A stretch of 64,000 nt of DNA. Source: Ohessyouella blattaphilus (GTDB lineage: Bacteria; Bacillota; Clostridia; Lachnospirales; Lachnospiraceae). The notes below the pieces were generated by a model that was not told where the DNA came from, made no database searches, and saw only the letters and a list, made by a program, of their open reading frames with translations. The stretch's first letter is position 1. Every line of letters starts with the position of its first letter. This document shows positions 33,439 to 61,547 of this stretch, piece after piece. Both the position numbers and the translations under genes were made by a program. The stretch covers positions 1 to 64,000 of the forward strand of contig NZ_JAMXOC010000004.1 in assembly GCF_024721265.1 (NCBI RefSeq). The letters run 5' to 3'.

Positions 33439-33572
33439 CCTCCTTGGTTTTTCTAGCAAAGAATGGACAGCCAAGGAGGCACGGTTACTGACAGGTATAT
33501 CTGCACCCGGACTACCAGCCGGGTCGTGTTTTGATCTTCGCCTTTATGTAGTTACGCCACTATCCTACACCT
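33439..33572 (-). promoter_or_regulatory. yjdF-type riboswitch with ribosome-site hairpin
   Basis: The minus-strand leader of yjdF is about 130 bases, with GGCGAAGATCAAAACACGAC, a CCCGGCTGGTAGTCCGGG stem and a downstream GCCTCCTTGG (33480-33471) that is the exact complement of CCAAGGAGG (33447-33439), the yjdF ribosome site. So folding can hide the ribosome site, indicating translational control. The yjdF motif RNA is known to respond to azaaromatic molecules; I assign it from gene context and layout, not a covariance search. Confidence 0.75.
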
Positions 33573-55734: not shown

Positions 55735-55763
55735 TTGAAATATCTCTTCTACTAGGCTATAAT
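55735..55763 (+). promoter_or_regulatory. Promoter of the D-Asp ligase/racemase/MurE/AsnB operon
   Basis: TTGAAA (55735-55740) and perfect TATAAT (55758-55763) are 17 bases apart, about 47 bases before the first ATG. No other convincing promoter is seen until the end of the four-gene run. Confidence 0.75.
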
Positions 55764-55809
55764 GAGACATTGAGTTTTTAGCAAAAAGAGACGTTTTCAG
55801 GAGGAGAAC

Positions 55810-57015
55810 ATGGAATTTATTGAGAGAGAATTTGTCCCCATGATTTTTGGGGGAGATATTAATACATACAGTGTTTCTAGAGCGTTTTATGAAGAGTATC
55901 AGGTAAAGGCCCACGTGTTCGGGAAGTTTGCTTCCGGCCCTAGCTATAAAAGCAAAATCTTAGAATACCACATTACCCCAGATATCGATACCGATGCCGG
56001 CTTTATGCGCGAAGTGGAAGCGTTTTGCAAGGAACATCACGACCAGAAGGTTTTCCTTATTGGTTGTGGTGATAATTATATTGCCATGATTGGCAAGCAC
56101 AAATACCAGGTGCCAGAAAATGCCGTGGTTCCTCATGTGGATTACGAAATGATGGAGAACCTTCAGAAGAAAGATTATTTCTATGAGCTGTGTGAAAAGC
56201 ACGGTCTCGATTATCCTGCTACTTATGTGTATAAGAAAGGGATGAGCCTAGACTTTGCACTAGATTTTGAGTATCCGGTGATCTTAAAGCCTTCTGAAAG
56301 TGTAACCTACTGGGATAGCCACTATGAAGGTCAGGAGAAGGTATATTTTATCAATAATAAAGCGGAGCTGGATAAAAGTATTCAACTGATTTACGATCAC
56401 GGGTATGAAAGTCCATTGATTATTCAGGATACCGTTCCGGGAAATGACGAAAATATGTACGTGTTGACGGCGTATTCCAATCAACAAGGAAAGGTGGAGA
56501 TGATGTGCTTAGGCCACGTGCTTCTAGAAGATCACCACCCTACCGGTAGAGGCAATCACACGGTGATTATCACCGAATTTAATGAAGAGCTGATGCTAAA
56601 GACGAAAGCCATGCTAGAAGATATCGGCTACGTTGGCTTCTCTAACTTTGATATTAAATACGATACTAGGGATCAGAAATACAAATTCTTTGAAATCAAT
56701 ACGAGACAAGGACGAAGTAATTACTACGTGACGGGCTCTGGTTTTAACATTGCCAAATACTTAGTGGAAGACTATGTCTATGGACACGAACACCCACTAG
56801 AGCTAGCGAAAGACGCGCACTTGTGGATGGTGGTGCCAAAGTCAGTGGCCTTTAGTCAGATTAAGCAGCCTGCCAATATTCAGGCGATGAAAAAGCTGAT
56901 TCAGGAAGGAAAAATGGTGAATCCTACCTTTAATAAAGGGGATTATCGGTTAGGACGCCTGTATCGCCTAGCGCGAGTACATGTAGGACACTATATTAAT
57001 TACCGCAAATATTAA
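55810..57015 (+). CDS. ATP-grasp carboxylate-amine ligase, D-aspartate ligase-like
   Basis: 401 residues, the length of Enterococcus D-aspartate ligase. An N-terminal Rossmann-like part (VPMIFGGDINTYSVSRAFYEEY) precedes the ATP-grasp core with YPVILKPSESV (ATP-binding Lys near 160), a glycine-containing PTGRGNHTV loop and the metal-binding FFEINTRQGRSNYY near 296-309. This class joins a carboxylate to an amine; Aslfm adds D-Asp by its beta-carboxyl to Lys of the peptidoglycan precursor. The neighbouring racemase, MurE-like ligase and asparagine synthase support that reading. Ribosome site AGGAGGAG. Confidence 0.8.
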   Translation: MEFIEREFVPMIFGGDINTYSVSRAFYEEYQVKAHVFGKFASGPSYKSKILEYHITPDIDTDAGFMREVEAFCKEHHDQKVFLIGCGDNYIAMIGKHKYQVPENAVVPHVDYEMMENLQKKDYFYELCEKHGLDYPATYVYKKGMSLDFALDFEYPVILKPSESVTYWDSHYEGQEKVYFINNKAELDKSIQLIYDHGYESPLIIQDTVPGNDENMYVLTAYSNQQGKVEMMCLGHVLLEDHHPTGRGNHTVIITEFNEELMLKTKAMLEDIGYVGFSNFDIKYDTRDQKYKFFEINTRQGRSNYYVTGSGFNIAKYLVEDYVYGHEHPLELAKDAHLWMVVPKSVAFSQIKQPANIQAMKKLIQEGKMVNPTFNKGDYRLGRLYRLARVHVGHYINYRKY

Positions 57016-57024
57016 GGAGTCAGG

Positions 57025-57732
57025 ATGGAAAAGAAGCTACTAGGAGTCATTGGGGGTATGGGACCAGAAGCCACGGATTATTATTATAATCAGGTGATTG
57101 CCCATACGGATGCGCCAAAGGATCAAGATCATATCGATATGGTGATTTTAAGCCACGCCTCGATGCCAGATAGAACCCAGGCTATTCTTAGCGGGGACGA
57201 CCAGGATATTATTAAGAAGCTGGTAAAAGACGCCCAGACATTAGAAGCCATGGGGGTGTCTAACATTGCCATTCCCTGTAATACCTCACACTATTTTTAC
57301 GAAAAAATCCAGGCAGAGACCAAGGCCACCATCATCAATATGGTAGAAGAAAGCGTCAAGTTTGCCGTTAATAATTTTGAAGACGTTCACAAAATCGGCA
57401 TTATGGCAACCGATGGTACTGTGAAAGCTAGAGTGTACCACCAGGCCTGCGAAGCGCTAGGGGTAGAAGCGATGATTCCCAGTGAGAAGCGGCAAGTGGA
57501 AGTGATGAGTCTGATTTATGAAGAGATTAAGGCCGGTCTTCCGGGAGATAAGAAGAAATTCAACCGGATTTATGAAGAGCTGGTAAAAAATGGTTGCGAC
57601 GTGGTGATTCTCGCCTGTACGGAGCTTTCAGTCTATAAGAAATCCCATGAGGTTTCCGAACGCTGTTTGGATGCCATGGACGTCCTAGTGCGGGAGTCGA
57701 TTATCCGCTCAGGCGCAGAATATAAGGAGTAA
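57025..57732 (+). CDS. Aspartate/glutamate racemase family protein
   Basis: 235 residues. Two-cysteine racemase: C85 in IAIPCNTSHYF and C198 in VVILACTELSVY, with GVIGGMGPEATDYYY at the start, as in aspartate racemases of the YgeA/RacX type. It would supply D-aspartate from L-aspartate for the ligase encoded nine bases upstream. Substrate is inferred from context; glutamate or other amino acids cannot be excluded. The stop overlaps the next open frame. Confidence 0.85.
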   Translation: MEKKLLGVIGGMGPEATDYYYNQVIAHTDAPKDQDHIDMVILSHASMPDRTQAILSGDDQDIIKKLVKDAQTLEAMGVSNIAIPCNTSHYFYEKIQAETKATIINMVEESVKFAVNNFEDVHKIGIMATDGTVKARVYHQACEALGVEAMIPSEKRQVEVMSLIYEEIKAGLPGDKKKFNRIYEELVKNGCDVVILACTELSVYKKSHEVSERCLDAMDVLVRESIIRSGAEYKE

Positions 57733-57740
57733 TGCAAAGT

Positions 57741-59231
57741 ATGAACTTTTATCCTCTTAAGAAATACCTTGAAGTGGCAGGAGAATACGGGACGGTTACC
57801 AAAAGTGCTCTTCTGGGTAAAGAAGAGCAAGAAGTAACCGGTCTTACCTATAACTCGAAAGAAGTAGCTCCAGGAACTCTTTTTATCTGTAAAGGCGCGA
57901 ATTTTAAAGAAGCGTACCTACAAGAAGCAAAAGAGAGAGGAGCTTTTTGCTATATTAGTGAAAAGGAGTATCAGGCGGGTGCAGGCATGAGCTGTATCAT
58001 CGTCAGCGACATTCGCCAGGTGATGGCAAGACAGGCCATTCTTTTTTACAACGAACCGGCCAAAGACTTAAAGGTTATCGGTATTGGCGGAACTAAGGGA
58101 AAGACGACTACCGCCTTTTACCTAAAGAATATTATTGAGCAAAAAGCCCCTTGCGGGATTCTATCCTCTATCTGTACTTATGATGGTAAGACAGAAGCGG
58201 TGGCCCATAATACCACACCAGAGTCGGTAGAGCTCCAGAAGTATCTATATCAAACGGTACAAAACGGGGTGAAATACATGGTGATGGAGGTGTCCTCTCA
58301 GGCCCTTAAGTACCACCGGGTGGAAGGACTAGACTTTGATATCGGGGTCTTCCTTAATATTTCCGAGGATCACATTAGCCCTATCGAGCATCCAGATTTT
58401 GAAGATTACTTTCAGTCAAAGATGCTGATGTTTAAGCAGACCCAGACGGCGATCGTCAACCTAGACGGCGGTGAGCGCGTCAGGGCTCTCGAGGCCGCGA
58501 AGAATGCCAGTCAGACAATTACCTTTAGTTTAGAAGATAAAACTGCCGATTATTATGGCAAAGATATCGAGAAGGTGGGAGAGCATAGCCGCTTTAAAGC
58601 CGTCGCAAAAGGCGCAGAAAAGACCTATGAGCTAGCGATGCCAGGACTTTTTAATATCGAGAATGCACTAGCCGCTATGGCCGCAGCTAACGCCTTAGGA
58701 TTCTCTGAGGAAGAGATTTATACTGGCTTAAAGACGGCCAGGGTAAAGGGGCGGATGGAGATTTTCCATGGGAAAGACGGGAATAAAATCGGCATCGTCG
58801 ATTACGCTCACAATAAATTAAGCTTTGAAAAGCTATTTTCTTCACTGAAAAAAGAGTATCCAGGATACCGCATCATCGCAGTCTTCGGAACCCCTGGGGG
58901 AAAAGCCTTCGGCAGACGCAAAGACTTAGGTGAGGCCGCCGATCGGTACGCCGATGAGATTATCTTAACGGCCGATGAGCCAGGTATCGAACAGGTGCGA
59001 GATATCTGCGAGGAAATCGGCAAGTATATTAAGCATAAGCCGTTTCAGATTGTGGAGGAGCGAAGCCAGGCTGTTGAGATCGCCTTCTCTTCGTCTCCTG
59101 AGAAGGCCGTTATCGCGGTAGTTGGCAAAGGCCACGAAGCCTCGATGAAAATCGGCCATGAATATGTAGATTATCCTTCGGATTTAGAACTGGTAGCAAA
59201 GGTCTTAAAGGCTTACGATGAAAGGAATTAG
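57741..59231 (+). CDS. MurE-like UDP-MurNAc-tripeptide synthetase paralogue
   Basis: 496 residues from ATG 57741; ATG 57732 is too close to AAGGAG. The three Mur-ligase domains are present: the N-terminal uracil-binding part (VTGLTYNSKEVAPGTLFICKG), the central ATPase GIGGTKGKTTTAFYL (near 114-128, with Lys where MurE usually has Asn), the carbamoyl-Lys region and a C-terminal DYAHNKLSFEKL. At the position of the substrate-specifying DNPR/DNPA loop this protein has ADEPGIEQV. So it probably adds something other than meso-diaminopimelate, or acts on a different acceptor. Part of the D-Asp operon. Confidence 0.85.
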   Translation: MNFYPLKKYLEVAGEYGTVTKSALLGKEEQEVTGLTYNSKEVAPGTLFICKGANFKEAYLQEAKERGAFCYISEKEYQAGAGMSCIIVSDIRQVMARQAILFYNEPAKDLKVIGIGGTKGKTTTAFYLKNIIEQKAPCGILSSICTYDGKTEAVAHNTTPESVELQKYLYQTVQNGVKYMVMEVSSQALKYHRVEGLDFDIGVFLNISEDHISPIEHPDFEDYFQSKMLMFKQTQTAIVNLDGGERVRALEAAKNASQTITFSLEDKTADYYGKDIEKVGEHSRFKAVAKGAEKTYELAMPGLFNIENALAAMAAANALGFSEEEIYTGLKTARVKGRMEIFHGKDGNKIGIVDYAHNKLSFEKLFSSLKKEYPGYRIIAVFGTPGGKAFGRRKDLGEAADRYADEIILTADEPGIEQVRDICEEIGKYIKHKPFQIVEERSQAVEIAFSSSPEKAVIAVVGKGHEASMKIGHEYVDYPSDLELVAKVLKAYDERN

Positions 59232-59233
59232 TT

Positions 59234-61072
59234 ATGTGTGGATTTACCGGATTTTATAGCGCCATGAGCGCTTCGGAAAAGGAAAAATTAATTGATGAGA
59301 TGGGCGAAAAAATTGTCCATAGAGGCCCGGATAGTAAAGGAAGCTTTACCGATGATTACGTGGCCTTTGGCTTTCGCCGCCTAAGTATTATCGACTTAGC
59401 GGGTGGTACTCAGCCAATTACCAGTAGCGACGGCAACTACGTCATTATCTTTAATGGCGAGATCTATAATTATAGAGAGCTTCGCCAAGACTTAATTGAC
59501 AACCACGGAGCGAAGTTTCAGACCAACTCTGATACGGAAGTAATCATCGAGACCTACAAGGTCTATAAAGAAGAAACGGCCGCGAGATTGCGGGGGATGT
59601 TTGCTTTTGTAATCTACGAAAAGGATACCCATAAGCTTTACGGCGCTAGGGATTACTTTGGTATTAAACCCTTCCACTACGCAAAGATGGGGGATACCTT
59701 TATCTTTGGCTCGGAGATCAAATCCTTCTTGCCTCACCCTGATTTCAAGAAAGAGGTTAATAAAGAGGCGCTAAAGATGTACTTAGTTTTTCAATATACG
59801 CCTACGGAAGAGTCTATTTTCAAAAACGTATACAAGTTAACACCGGGTACGTTTTTTACCTATGACGGCAAAGAGTTCCAGACGAAGCGATACTTCACCA
59901 TGGACTACGAGATTGCCGAGAAGACCTTTGACGAGACGGTGAAGCTCATTGAGGAAACGGTACAAAGCTCAGTAGATTATCATCAGATTGCCGATGTAGA
60001 AGTGGGTTCTTTCCTTTCTGGTGGTGTGGATTCAAGCTATATCGCCTCATCGGTAAAACCCATGAAGACCTACTCGGTAGGCTTCGACGTAGAAGGCTTT
60101 GACGAGACCGGCTACTCAGAAGAGCTATGCCGACTGTTAAAGATGAAAAATGTAAAGAAAGAAATTACGCCGGATGAATTCTTTGATAGTTTACCTATGG
60201 TTCAGTATCACTCCGATGAACCTCATGCCAACCTCTCAGCGGTGCCTCTCTACTACCTAGCAGAGCTGGCCGCGAAAGACGTAAAGGTGGTGCTAAGCGG
60301 GGAAGGTGCTGATGAGATGTTCGGTGGTTACGAGTCCTATCAGTCCAGTGCTATCGGCGAATTCTACAAAGGAATCACCACGAAGAAGTTCCGTCATCGC
60401 CTAGCTAAGTGGGCGGCTGATCGTCCGTATTTTAAAGGCCAAGCCTTCCTTCAAAGAAATGCCGATACGGTGGAAGATGGCTACATAGGTCAAGCCTTTA
60501 TTATGAACAACGAAGAAGCTGAGGAGATTTTGGCCCCGGCATATCAGAGCGATATTAAGTATCAGGATATTACGAAGCCTTATTTTGATAAAATGAAGGG
60601 CATGGATGATTTGCATAAAAAGATGTATCTAGATATGCACGTCTGGCTCCCCAACGACATTTTGCTAAAAGCGGACCGGATGACCATGGCCCATTCTCTA
60701 GAGCTACGGGTGCCTTATCTAGATAGAGAGGTGTGGAACTTATCGAGAACCATGAAAAGCCGCTTCCTAATCGATAAAGGCGTTCCTAAATTTGCCTTTA
60801 GAACGGCCGCCCTCGCCAAAATTCCCACAGAGTGGGCTAAGCGAAAGAAGCTCGGCTTTATGGTACCGATTAAAGTATGGCTTAGAGAGGATAAATATTA
60901 CAATCAAGTGAAGGCGATTTTTGAAAAAGACTACGTTAGCGAGTTCTTTGATCAAAAGCTTATCTTGCAGATGCTAGAAGAGCATAAAGCCAAGAAGAAA
61001 GCTCATCACCGTAAGCTTTACACCATCTATTCATTCCTTTTATGGTATGAGCAGTATTTCGTTTTGCGCTAA
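59234..61072 (+). CDS. Glutamine-hydrolysing asparagine synthase (AsnB/AsnH-like)
   Basis: 612 residues. The N-terminal nucleophile is Cys2 (MCGFTGFY) with the class II glutaminase motifs RGPDS and NGEIYNY; the synthetase half has the ATP-binding SGGVDSSY near 256-263, SGEGADEMFGGY and YLDREVWN motifs. It converts aspartate to asparagine with glutamine as nitrogen donor. In Lactococcus an AsnB homologue (AsnH) amidates D-Asp of the peptidoglycan bridge; this place beside a D-Asp ligase and racemase suggests that role. It starts two bases after the MurE-like stop. Confidence 0.9.
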   Translation: MCGFTGFYSAMSASEKEKLIDEMGEKIVHRGPDSKGSFTDDYVAFGFRRLSIIDLAGGTQPITSSDGNYVIIFNGEIYNYRELRQDLIDNHGAKFQTNSDTEVIIETYKVYKEETAARLRGMFAFVIYEKDTHKLYGARDYFGIKPFHYAKMGDTFIFGSEIKSFLPHPDFKKEVNKEALKMYLVFQYTPTEESIFKNVYKLTPGTFFTYDGKEFQTKRYFTMDYEIAEKTFDETVKLIEETVQSSVDYHQIADVEVGSFLSGGVDSSYIASSVKPMKTYSVGFDVEGFDETGYSEELCRLLKMKNVKKEITPDEFFDSLPMVQYHSDEPHANLSAVPLYYLAELAAKDVKVVLSGEGADEMFGGYESYQSSAIGEFYKGITTKKFRHRLAKWAADRPYFKGQAFLQRNADTVEDGYIGQAFIMNNEEAEEILAPAYQSDIKYQDITKPYFDKMKGMDDLHKKMYLDMHVWLPNDILLKADRMTMAHSLELRVPYLDREVWNLSRTMKSRFLIDKGVPKFAFRTAALAKIPTEWAKRKKLGFMVPIKVWLREDKYYNQVKAIFEKDYVSEFFDQKLILQMLEEHKAKKKAHHRKLYTIYSFLLWYEQYFVLR

Positions 61073-61253
61073 AAGACACAGAAAAGACATGGATGTCAAG
61101 GCTTTTTGTGTAAAATCATGTAAAAAAATGGGAAAGCAATCGGATAATTTGTTGATTTAGATATATCATTATGACCACAAGATATGGTATTATCACAGTA
61201 TAAAAGACTTGTACTACAAGTTAAACTCCCCAGATAAAGGTTAGGTGATAAAC

Positions 61254-61499
61254 ATGTCAAAAAGATTAATCAAGTTCCATGACCCCCACGAGGTGCAGGA
61301 CTTTGCCAATAAAGTTTCTCGTTACCCATATGATATGGACTTGAAAAGAGGGCGCTATATTGTGGACGCCAAGTCAATCCTAAGTATTTTGAGCATGGGA
61401 TTTGATAATAAAATTGAGCTAAAAGTATATGAGGACGAATCCGACGAGCTAAATGGCTTGTGGAATGACATCAGTCCTTATCTTGCACCAGTTAGATAA
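61254..61499 (+). CDS. HPr-like protein lacking the phospho-histidine motif
   Basis: 81 residues from ATG 61254 (AGGTGAT upstream; GTG 61245 also in frame). The body FANKVSRYPYDMDLKRGRYIVDAKSILSILSM follows the HPr fold, but the N-terminal GIHARP motif with His15 is replaced by HDPHEVQ. It therefore probably cannot carry PTS phosphate and is regulatory or structural. A dyad ACTTGT-ACT-ACAAGT (61207-61221) lies 33 bases upstream and could be an operator. Monocistronic, with a terminator following. Confidence 0.75.
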   Translation: MSKRLIKFHDPHEVQDFANKVSRYPYDMDLKRGRYIVDAKSILSILSMGFDNKIELKVYEDESDELNGLWNDISPYLAPVR

Positions 61500-61513: not shown

Positions 61514-61547
61514 GCCTCCTGGCGAAAGCCAGGGGGCATGTTTTTTT
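61514..61547 (+). terminator. Intrinsic terminator after the HPr-like gene
   Basis: GCCTCCTGGC and GCCAGGGGGC pair around GAAA (one G-U), followed three bases on by seven T. Confidence 0.85.

Follow-up and report, generated by a model that had tools for sequence, protein, structure and literature searches.

A single compact operon of Ohessyouella blattaphilus appears to make a cell wall of an unusual type, with an ornithine- or lysine-type stem peptide and D-aspartate bridges. The usual diaminopimelate (DAP) version of the wall has apparently been lost in this species; its spore-forming relatives seem to keep both. The operon was found in a window of 64,000 nucleotides of the O. blattaphilus genome (G000; assembly 98.9% complete). 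It probably sets both residue 3 and the bridge of a wall that lacks diaminopimelate, and the MurE with the DNPR loop motif would serve the cortex where spores remain. Enzymatic activities, the identity of residue 3 and the division between vegetative wall and cortex are predicted here from gene content, motifs, a tree, synteny and phyletic pattern.

Operon structure

Four forward-strand open reading frames, spaced by 9, −1 and 2 bases, encode an ATP-grasp ligase (ORF1), a two-cysteine racemase (ORF2), a MurE (ORF3) and an asparagine synthase (ORF4). The first-pass annotation, made from the sequence alone, had placed four tightly spaced genes of these enzyme families behind a consensus promoter. 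The genes were confirmed by the ORF coordinates and by profile scores or, for ORF1, by its fold. The promoter-like TTGAAA-17-TATAAT 5' of the operon (55735..55763, + strand) has 11/12 matches and is the top site of the region, but such sites were not enriched over shuffled sequences (12 found versus 12.3 expected). No GC anomaly was seen across the operon (0.42–0.48 per kb).

Bridge enzymes

We propose that ORF1 (55810..57015, + strand) is a D-aspartate ligase of the AslA type. Its sequence matched profiles weakly (Pfam CPSase_L_D2, 21.2 bits), and phmmer found no match among PDB sequences at E up to 1. The predicted model (19 aligned sequences, pLDDT 91.9) has an ATP-grasp fold, with PurK, an L-amino acid ligase and PylC among its top PDB structure matches. 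ORF1 is 34–40% identical to the ligases of L. curvatus, L. crispatus and L. fermentum, with an alignment coverage of 79% for the first and 99% for the other two (L. fermentum, 33.6% identity across 99% of ORF1). L. curvatus and L. crispatus are D-Asp-bridge species; the ligase adjoins a racemase in the former and asnB in the latter, and ORF1 has its own racemase as the next gene. According to PMC4155827, most lactobacilli have D-Asp in their walls and Limosilactobacillus fermentum has L-ornithine at position 3. The latter species shares an ORF1 homologue with O. blattaphilus but has no racemase among the annotated neighbours of its ligase; the likeness is drawn from the ligase.

ORF2 (57025..57732, + strand) belongs to the Asp/Glu-type racemase family (TIGR00035, 196.9 bits, cut-off 93.1; also PF01177) and carries the two catalytic cysteines expected of RacD, at positions 85 and 198. 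The aspartate racemase structure PDB 1jfl matches it with E 1.1e-38. Among the named loci, which are the best 80 out of 585 stretches that were confirmed, the two cysteine motifs searched were kept in 51/56 and 55/56 racemases. We propose that ORF2 is an aspartate racemase of the RacD type. It also passes the NCBIfam equivalog model of cysteate racemase, CuyB (211.4 bits, cut-off 190); this label was set aside because the operon context is wall synthesis, and the model was judged too wide.

ORF4 (59234..61072, + strand) is a glutamine-dependent asparagine synthase (TIGR01536, 484.9 bits, cut-off 267.1), and is the third gene after the ligase. It is 49% identical to the asnB beside Collinsella murE and 42% identical to the asnB beside the L. 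crispatus ligase. We propose an AsnH-like amidase of the D-Asp bridge. An asnB near the operon was seen in only 8 of the 126 neighbour-set loci, the window included.

In lactococci and Enterococcus faecium, an aspartate racemase, a D-Asp ligase and AsnH make the D-Asp/D-Asn cross-bridge. In L. lactis the racemase gene lies in the D-Asp ligase operon and an asparagine synthase amidates the bridge (PMC4155827). The O. blattaphilus operon would have the same three components as this AslA/RacD/AsnH module of L. lactis and lactobacilli (Aslfm in E. faecium), namely an ATP-grasp D-Asp ligase, an aspartate racemase and an amidating asparagine synthase, but it also includes a MurE, the only one found in the genome. 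The likeness of ORF1 to AslA and Aslfm is drawn from the lactobacillar ligases, and that of ORF4 to AsnH from its synthase family and its linkage to the ligase. The predicted operon for D-Asp/D-Asn-type bridges joined to a MurE is supported by ligase homology and by the clade of ORF3 described below. Taken together, ORF3 would add a basic amino acid lacking an omega-carboxyl group at stem position 3, ORF2 would make D-Asp for ORF1 to attach to the omega-amino group, and the D-Asp would be amidated to D-Asn by ORF4.

The operon could instead make a peptide for secretion or storage and no wall precursor, as might be read from the remote sequence families of ORF1 and from the cysteate racemase match of ORF2. 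We consider this very improbable: in G000 and its relatives G001 and G006 no further MurE turned up, so that stem peptides would not be made in the absence of ORF3.

MurE and its substrate loop

ORF3 (57732..59231, + strand) is a MurE by profile (TIGR01085, 339.8 bits, cut-off 257.3; PF08245, 152.2 bits; PF02875, 77.8 bits). Its top NCBIfam model is an L-lysine ligase, at 383.8 bits under a cut-off of 536. Among the seven Mur_ligase_M matches in the genome, ORF3 alone is a MurE; the other six score as MurF, MurD, MurC, two FolC (above cut-off) and MurT (below cut-off). For the MurF gene, a bifunctional MurE/MurF model ranked first but matched in its MurF half only, and the MurF model came second. 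ORF3 had initially been called a paralogue, which no longer applies, as a second, canonical murE with a DNPR loop was not found in the 98.9% complete assembly. G001 and G006 likewise gave one full MurE match each.

The substrate loop of ORF3 reads DEPG (residues 415–418; 58974..58985, + strand), where the meso-DAP enzymes have DNPR. The aligned loops are DDPA in E. faecalis, DDPG in L. curvatus, EDPA in Collinsella and DNPR in Listeria. According to PMC3829189, the DAP carboxyl group is held in DAP-type MurE by the loop Arg and Asn, and S. aureus MurE uses a loop Asp to bind the amino group of lysine. ORF3 keeps Asp at place 1, has gained an acid at place 2 and has Gly for Arg; the Asp and the Gly could fit ornithine too. 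Lysine-type MurEs of S. aureus and E. faecalis share the absence of the DAP-binding Arg; unlike them, ORF3 has the extra acid, and some members of its clade are fused to acetylglutamate kinase (ArgB). The KGxE loop of ORF3 reads KGHE, which also occurs in DNPR enzymes.

The first-pass annotation had argued against diaminopimelate from both the DEPG loop and the P-loop TKGKTT. Both motifs were read correctly, but only the first argument holds. TKGKTT was rejected as a sign of specificity because six DNPR enzymes (L042–L047) carry it.

A quick tree search, with SH-aLRT as its only support measure and 79 of the 110 MurE rows (S. aureus not among them), placed ORF3 in a non-DAP clade of 53 rows (SH-aLRT 98), separate from the DNPR enzymes and including L. 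curvatus MurE and the lysine-type enzyme of E. faecalis. Rows omitted included the loop-less types L050 and L126, and fused rows were trimmed to their first 520 residues. Within the clade, the DEPG rows fall in an EDxx group of 49 rows (SH-aLRT 96) that includes the ArgB fusions. The operon MurE of family f68, with a DNPD loop, falls on the DNPR side; hence, the operon and the non-DAP clade are not coextensive. Loop and tree support the conclusion that ORF3 does not look DAP-specific. Recent duplication of the family's canonical MurE was rejected as its origin, with ORF3 in a separate clade and only 33–38% identical to the DNxR/DNSR MurEs of relatives.

Collinsella aerofaciens, which has an A4-beta wall, offers a further comparison. 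Its murE has an adjoining asnB, and its MurE is 40% identical to ORF3. However, it belongs to the Actinomycetota, its MurE is a long branch in the tree, and no ligase or aspartate racemase was found among the annotated genes of the stretch around murE.

Residue at position 3

L-ornithine is the favoured residue 3, with the case for and against it about evenly balanced. In 13 genomes the non-DNPR MurE is fused to ArgB, an enzyme of the ornithine pathway. Two of the ArgB extensions scored 237.6 and 228.6 bits (cut-off 151.3), the key residues were retained in 14/14 fused rows, and a separate argB was also present in all three fusion genomes tested. Together with the operon, they point to L-ornithine, and less to L-lysine, as the residue 3 of a wall with D-Asp/D-Asn bridges. 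The G000 genome itself holds argC, argJ, argB and argD in one cluster, each above cut-off. The loop of ORF3, DEPG, differs from the EDxG of the fusions.

L-lysine is a less probable candidate that still carries real weight; the operon would then be the counterpart in Clostridia of the L-Lys-D-Asp(Asn) wall of lactococci (A4-alpha). This reading draws on the DEPG loop, which is not the EDxG of the fusions, and on its first Asp, which corresponds to the lysine-binding residue of S. aureus MurE. The presence of L. curvatus and E. faecalis in the 53-row clade and the L-lysine ligase as top model are also in its favour, as is G006 (loop DEPD), where no argB was found above cut-off. Conversely, the DEPG rows group within the clade that includes the ArgB fusions. 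Searches of G000 found neither DapF nor Ddh, so lysine for the wall would probably need to come from outside the cell, whereas the four arg genes are present.

The usual dap genes proved to be partly retained in G000: two copies of dapB, dapL (592.4 bits) and a lysA-like gene were found, but not dapF or ddh. By synteny, dapF is missing between glnA and dapL. Among family members, DapF was present in 7/7 genomes with DNxR MurE only, versus 0/4 with non-DAP MurE; G002 was left out of this contrast, and one genome, G007 (loop DNHR), is 67% complete. The retention of dapL, dapB and the lysA-like gene without dapF or ddh brings in LL-DAP. ORF3 would then use LL-DAP from DapL, and the epimerase would have been lost because LL-DAP is the end product. 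We consider this quite improbable. The ORF3 loop has gained an acid and lacks the Arg that holds the DAP carboxyl, ORF3 clusters with lysine-type enzymes (in a tree without any LL-DAP MurE), and an unrecognised epimerase feeding LysA would equally account for the retained genes. Any residue other than ornithine or lysine, LL-DAP included, is unlikely.

Distribution in relatives and sporulation

The first-pass annotation knew of no joining of bridge genes with a MurE copy. Such joining is not confined to this operon: ligase, racemase and a non-DNPR MurE, mostly EDxG, occur together in 45 of the 80 named loci. Carriers with named strains include Claveliimonas bilis (L144), Evtepia gabavorous (L188) and Clostridium aminobutyricum (L163). 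G008 has a non-DAP MurE (DDPG) without an adjoining ligase.

Of the 26 genomes counted that have a non-DNPR MurE, 17 also hold a DNPR-type MurE. With spoIVA as the single marker of sporulation, and with genomes within families not independent, spoIVA was present in 17/17 two-MurE genomes versus 1/9 with non-DNPR MurE only (that one 86% complete). DNPR murE, dapF, ddh and spoIVA were not found in G000, G001 and G006, and in G006 the DNPR murE is missing by synteny between the operon murE and priA. G008 has spoIVA and a DNSR MurE, with dapF and ddh not found. G396 has spoIVA and a MurE of the operon type only.

In the lineage of O. blattaphilus, the module was probably placed next to the DAP-type murE. 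Vegetative wall would be built with the operon MurE and spore cortex with the DNPR enzyme, both being kept where spores are still made; asporogenous lineages such as O. blattaphilus would have shed the DNPR enzyme. Lysinibacillus sphaericus has a vegetative wall with L-Lys-D-Asp and a cortex with meso-DAP, and its two MurE activities are divided between vegetative cells and spores, the arrangement put forward here for the Clostridia with two MurEs. However, L. sphaericus belongs to the Bacilli, and in the Clostridia the residue is possibly ornithine and the split is read from gene patterns. The earlier idea of a self-contained switch of stem-peptide chemistry fits relatives with both MurE types, but in G000, with its single MurE, one state is left.

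The two MurE types could also serve other ends, such as growth phase or stress, with the spoIVA pattern a product of shared ancestry. Six of the 26 genomes come from one genus (g95), within-family contrasts are available from families f1 and f68 only, and the operon MurE in f68 is of the DNPD type. Yet both contrasts came out as predicted from a vegetative/cortex division (f1, G008 versus G000, G001 and G006; f68, G392 versus G141, G209 and G303), and the penicillin-binding protein beside the L254 DNPR gene has SpoVD as its best model (631.9 bits, below the cut-off of 688). We regard this alternative as rather unlikely.

Implications

In the literature searched, which left most subscription journals outside its coverage and was seen in part, we recognised no description of the operon, of MurE fused to ArgB or of the connection to sporulation; nor did these searches yield anything on L-Orn-D-Asp in Eubacterium. 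The table of a 2024 review (PMC11382707) leaves the wall type blank for Roseburia, Coprococcus, Lachnoclostridium and Ruminococcus, gives meso-DAP for Blautia and Faecalibacterium, and lists Eubacterium as 4-beta with references 26–29, the first of them being the Collinsella aerofaciens transfer paper.

Tentatively, many spore-forming Clostridia may make an Orn (or Lys)-D-Asp vegetative wall with this operon, in some lineages fed by an ArgB fused to MurE, and a meso-DAP cortex with the DNPR MurE, while loss of sporulation would lead to shedding of the DNPR MurE and the meso-DAP branch, as in the genus of the window. The operon would predict which Clostridia have non-DAP walls. NOD1 recognises DAP peptides, and such walls would matter for how innate immunity senses gut bacteria and for which wall-cutting enzymes can attack them. 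PMC4015370 raises the question of why lysine is used in some species and DAP in others; it would become open to experiment within any one species that appears to have both types of enzyme.

Operon layout and MurE content

The four tightly spaced genes proposed in the first-pass annotation were confirmed. An ATP-grasp ligase, a two-cysteine Asp/Glu-type racemase, a MurE and an asparagine synthase run co-directionally at 55810-61072 (intergenic gaps of 9, -1 and 2 bases), downstream of a promoter-like TTGAAA-17-TATAAT at 55735. By inspection, the operon has an ABC transporter as one neighbour and, as the other, a gene whose small product looks like HPr. The latter (61245-61499; 84 aa) precedes a strong terminator-like hairpin at 61514-61537 and may belong to the operon transcript. 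The racemase (57025-57732) exceeds the cut-off of the NCBIfam cysteate racemase model, and automatic annotation may give it this wrong label. Elsewhere, the window contains a yjdF (azaaromatic) riboswitch (33447-33545, minus strand; 73.1 bits).

The operon MurE had been called a paralogue, which implied a second, canonical murE. However, the Mur_ligase_M profile matched seven proteins in the window genome (3.25 Mb, 88 contigs, 98.9% complete), and the operon enzyme was the sole MurE among them. The other six were named from their scores: MurF, MurD, MurC and two FolC scored over cut-off, MurT below it. In two relatives, G001 and G006, the operon-type MurE is again the single full-length MurE match.

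Substrate loop and phylogeny of MurE

The substrate loop of the window MurE indeed reads DEPG, whereas six family relatives (L042-L047) have DNPR and one (L048) has DNHR. In contrast, the P-loop TKGKTT, also proposed as a sign of specificity, is present in the DNPR enzymes of L042-L047 and was discarded as such. According to PMC3829189, diaminopimelate (DAP) enzymes bind the carboxyl group through the Asn and Arg of their DNPR loop, and Asp-406 and Glu-460 contact the lysine amino group in the lysine-adding MurE of S. aureus (loop DNPA). Loops elsewhere read DDPA (E. faecalis), DDPG (L. curvatus), EDPA (Collinsella), DNPR (Listeria) and ADHR (Deinococcus).

In a maximum-likelihood tree built from 79 rows by a quick search, the window MurE fell into a clade of 53 rows (SH-aLRT 98) that also holds those of E. 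faecalis, L. curvatus and Collinsella; within it, the window trio grouped with the EDxx enzymes in a clade of 49 rows (SH-aLRT 96). The DNPD enzymes of another family, f68, are likewise operon-borne and fell on the DNPR side; therefore, MurE seems to have joined the operon more than once. A further MurE-like type without a D-x-P-x loop occurs at L050:1711-3255, L126:3564-5114, L261:1186-2691 and L264:1633-3213, adjoining an ATP-grasp gene and a racemase in L050 and L126.

Diaminopimelate branch

DapF was not found in any of the four window-family genomes with a non-DAP MurE (G001, G006, G008 and the window genome itself, G000), whereas it was found in all seven with a DNxR MurE only; G002, with DapF but no MurE in hand, was kept outside this contrast. 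Ddh over cut-off was not found in the same four genomes, and was found in 6 of the 7 DNxR-only genomes. The window genome has the order glnA, small gene, dapL, while G003 (and G005, by inspection) has dapF between the small gene and dapL. Hence, the usual dap genes to be checked for were partly present: the genome retains dapL, dapB in two copies and a lysA-like gene scoring 277.9 bits (cut-off 297.9), while dapF and ddh were not found. The retained dapL lies in stretch L266 (G000:C1:292000-303000); an unrecognised epimerase could perhaps account for this combination.

Recurrence of the operon and possible links to ornithine

Homologues of the ligase (E at most 0.001) were found in 52 of 391 genomes of class Clostridia. 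Among 40 class loci around them, some of which end early, 16 combined ligase, racemase and MurE, and 15 had the ligase alone. Among the best 80 of 585 confirmed stretches (named loci), 45 had all three genes within 3.5 kb, the MurE being non-DNPR, 16 paired the ligase with MurE, 11 paired it with the racemase, and 8 had the ligase alone; 60 of the 70 MurE rows scored there were non-DNPR and 10 were DNPR. The operon does not regularly include the fourth gene, because asnB lies near the ligase in just 8 of 126 loci, including the window. A gene family whose L174 member is FemX-like (NF047883, 182.5 bits, below the cut-off of 500) occurs near the ligase in L091, L098, L106, L111 and L174.

In 13 distinct genomes (8 of the 40 class loci and 7 of the best 80 of 585 named loci, two common to both), the operon MurE carries about 285 extra C-terminal residues. 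Both extensions tested matched the acetylglutamate kinase model TIGR00761, with 237.6 and 228.6 bits against a cut-off of 151.3. The catalytic sites of the ArgB family (first Lys, GGGK, Arg, Asn/Asp, second Lys) were kept in all 14 fused rows in an alignment that included the ArgB of the window genome, and all three fusion genomes tested (G029, G094, G054) also have a separate argB. An ornithine-racemase-like gene recurs in 5 of 126 loci; at L173:949-2046 it lies directly upstream of the ligase (NF040742, 383.7 bits, below the cut-off of 480). Together, the fusion and this recurrent gene point to ornithine. However, the window MurE differs from EDxG in its loop (DEPG), which argues against carrying this reading straight to the window. 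Also against it, the unfused rows include one with DDPA and three with DDPG, and argB over cut-off was not found in G006.

Synteny and sporulation

In the six relatives L042-L047, priA and def come after the DNPR murE, with murF between murE and priA in L047; no fmt match was found in L043. Named loci of matching gene order suggest that the window family may be Lachnospiraceae. Eight loci (Drancourtella, Mordavella, Claveliimonas, Sellimonas and four more) have the order ligase-racemase-MurE(EDPG)-MurE(DNPR)-priA, with the two MurEs at most about 1.2 kb apart; the first MurE reads DDPA in L147. G006 has ClpB-DinB-ligase-racemase-MurE(DEPD)-priA-def-fmt (priA by profile score, others by inspection), and the DNPR murE is missing exactly before priA. 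The operon of the window has a different location, between the two neighbours named above. Twelve second-MurE loci were drawn; in 11 of them the DNPR gene clusters with mraY and a penicillin-binding protein, and the one such protein tested had SpoVD as best match (631.9 bits, below the cut-off of 688).

We compared MurE types with the sporulation marker spoIVA (TIGR02836) in 35 genomes; among 14 control genomes, this model matched in Bacillus subtilis only. All 17 genomes with both MurE kinds had spoIVA, versus 1 of 9 with only a non-DNPR MurE. That one, G396, is 86% complete, and all five of the congeners examined hold both kinds. The remaining nine genomes (DNxR or DNSR MurE only, or G002) had spoIVA in five cases. 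The association of both MurE kinds with spoIVA gave Fisher p = 5.8e-6 among the 26 genomes with a non-DNPR MurE and p = 4.7e-5 in a strict set of 22 (without the odd-loop G016, G040, G338 and G050), the genomes not being independent in either set. The window family f1 and family f68 each offered one within-family contrast, both in the predicted direction. Some of the 26 genomes have a non-DNPR MurE without an adjoining ligase (G008, G264). The second MurE of G008 (L041:5187-6779) is DNSR; this genome has spoIVA, and dapF and ddh were not found in it.

We conclude that the operon would set a non-DAP residue at stem position 3 and add a D-Asp/D-Asn bridge, with enzymatic activities and residue 3 predicted from sequence and the bridge chemistry taken from what PMC4155827 describes for lactic acid bacteria. 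The sporulation pattern is consistent with a division of labour between the two MurE types. Lysinibacillus sphaericus offers a precedent for such a split between wall and cortex. By this conclusion, the operon-type MurE would serve the vegetative wall, and a DAP-type MurE would be kept wherever a spore cortex is still needed.
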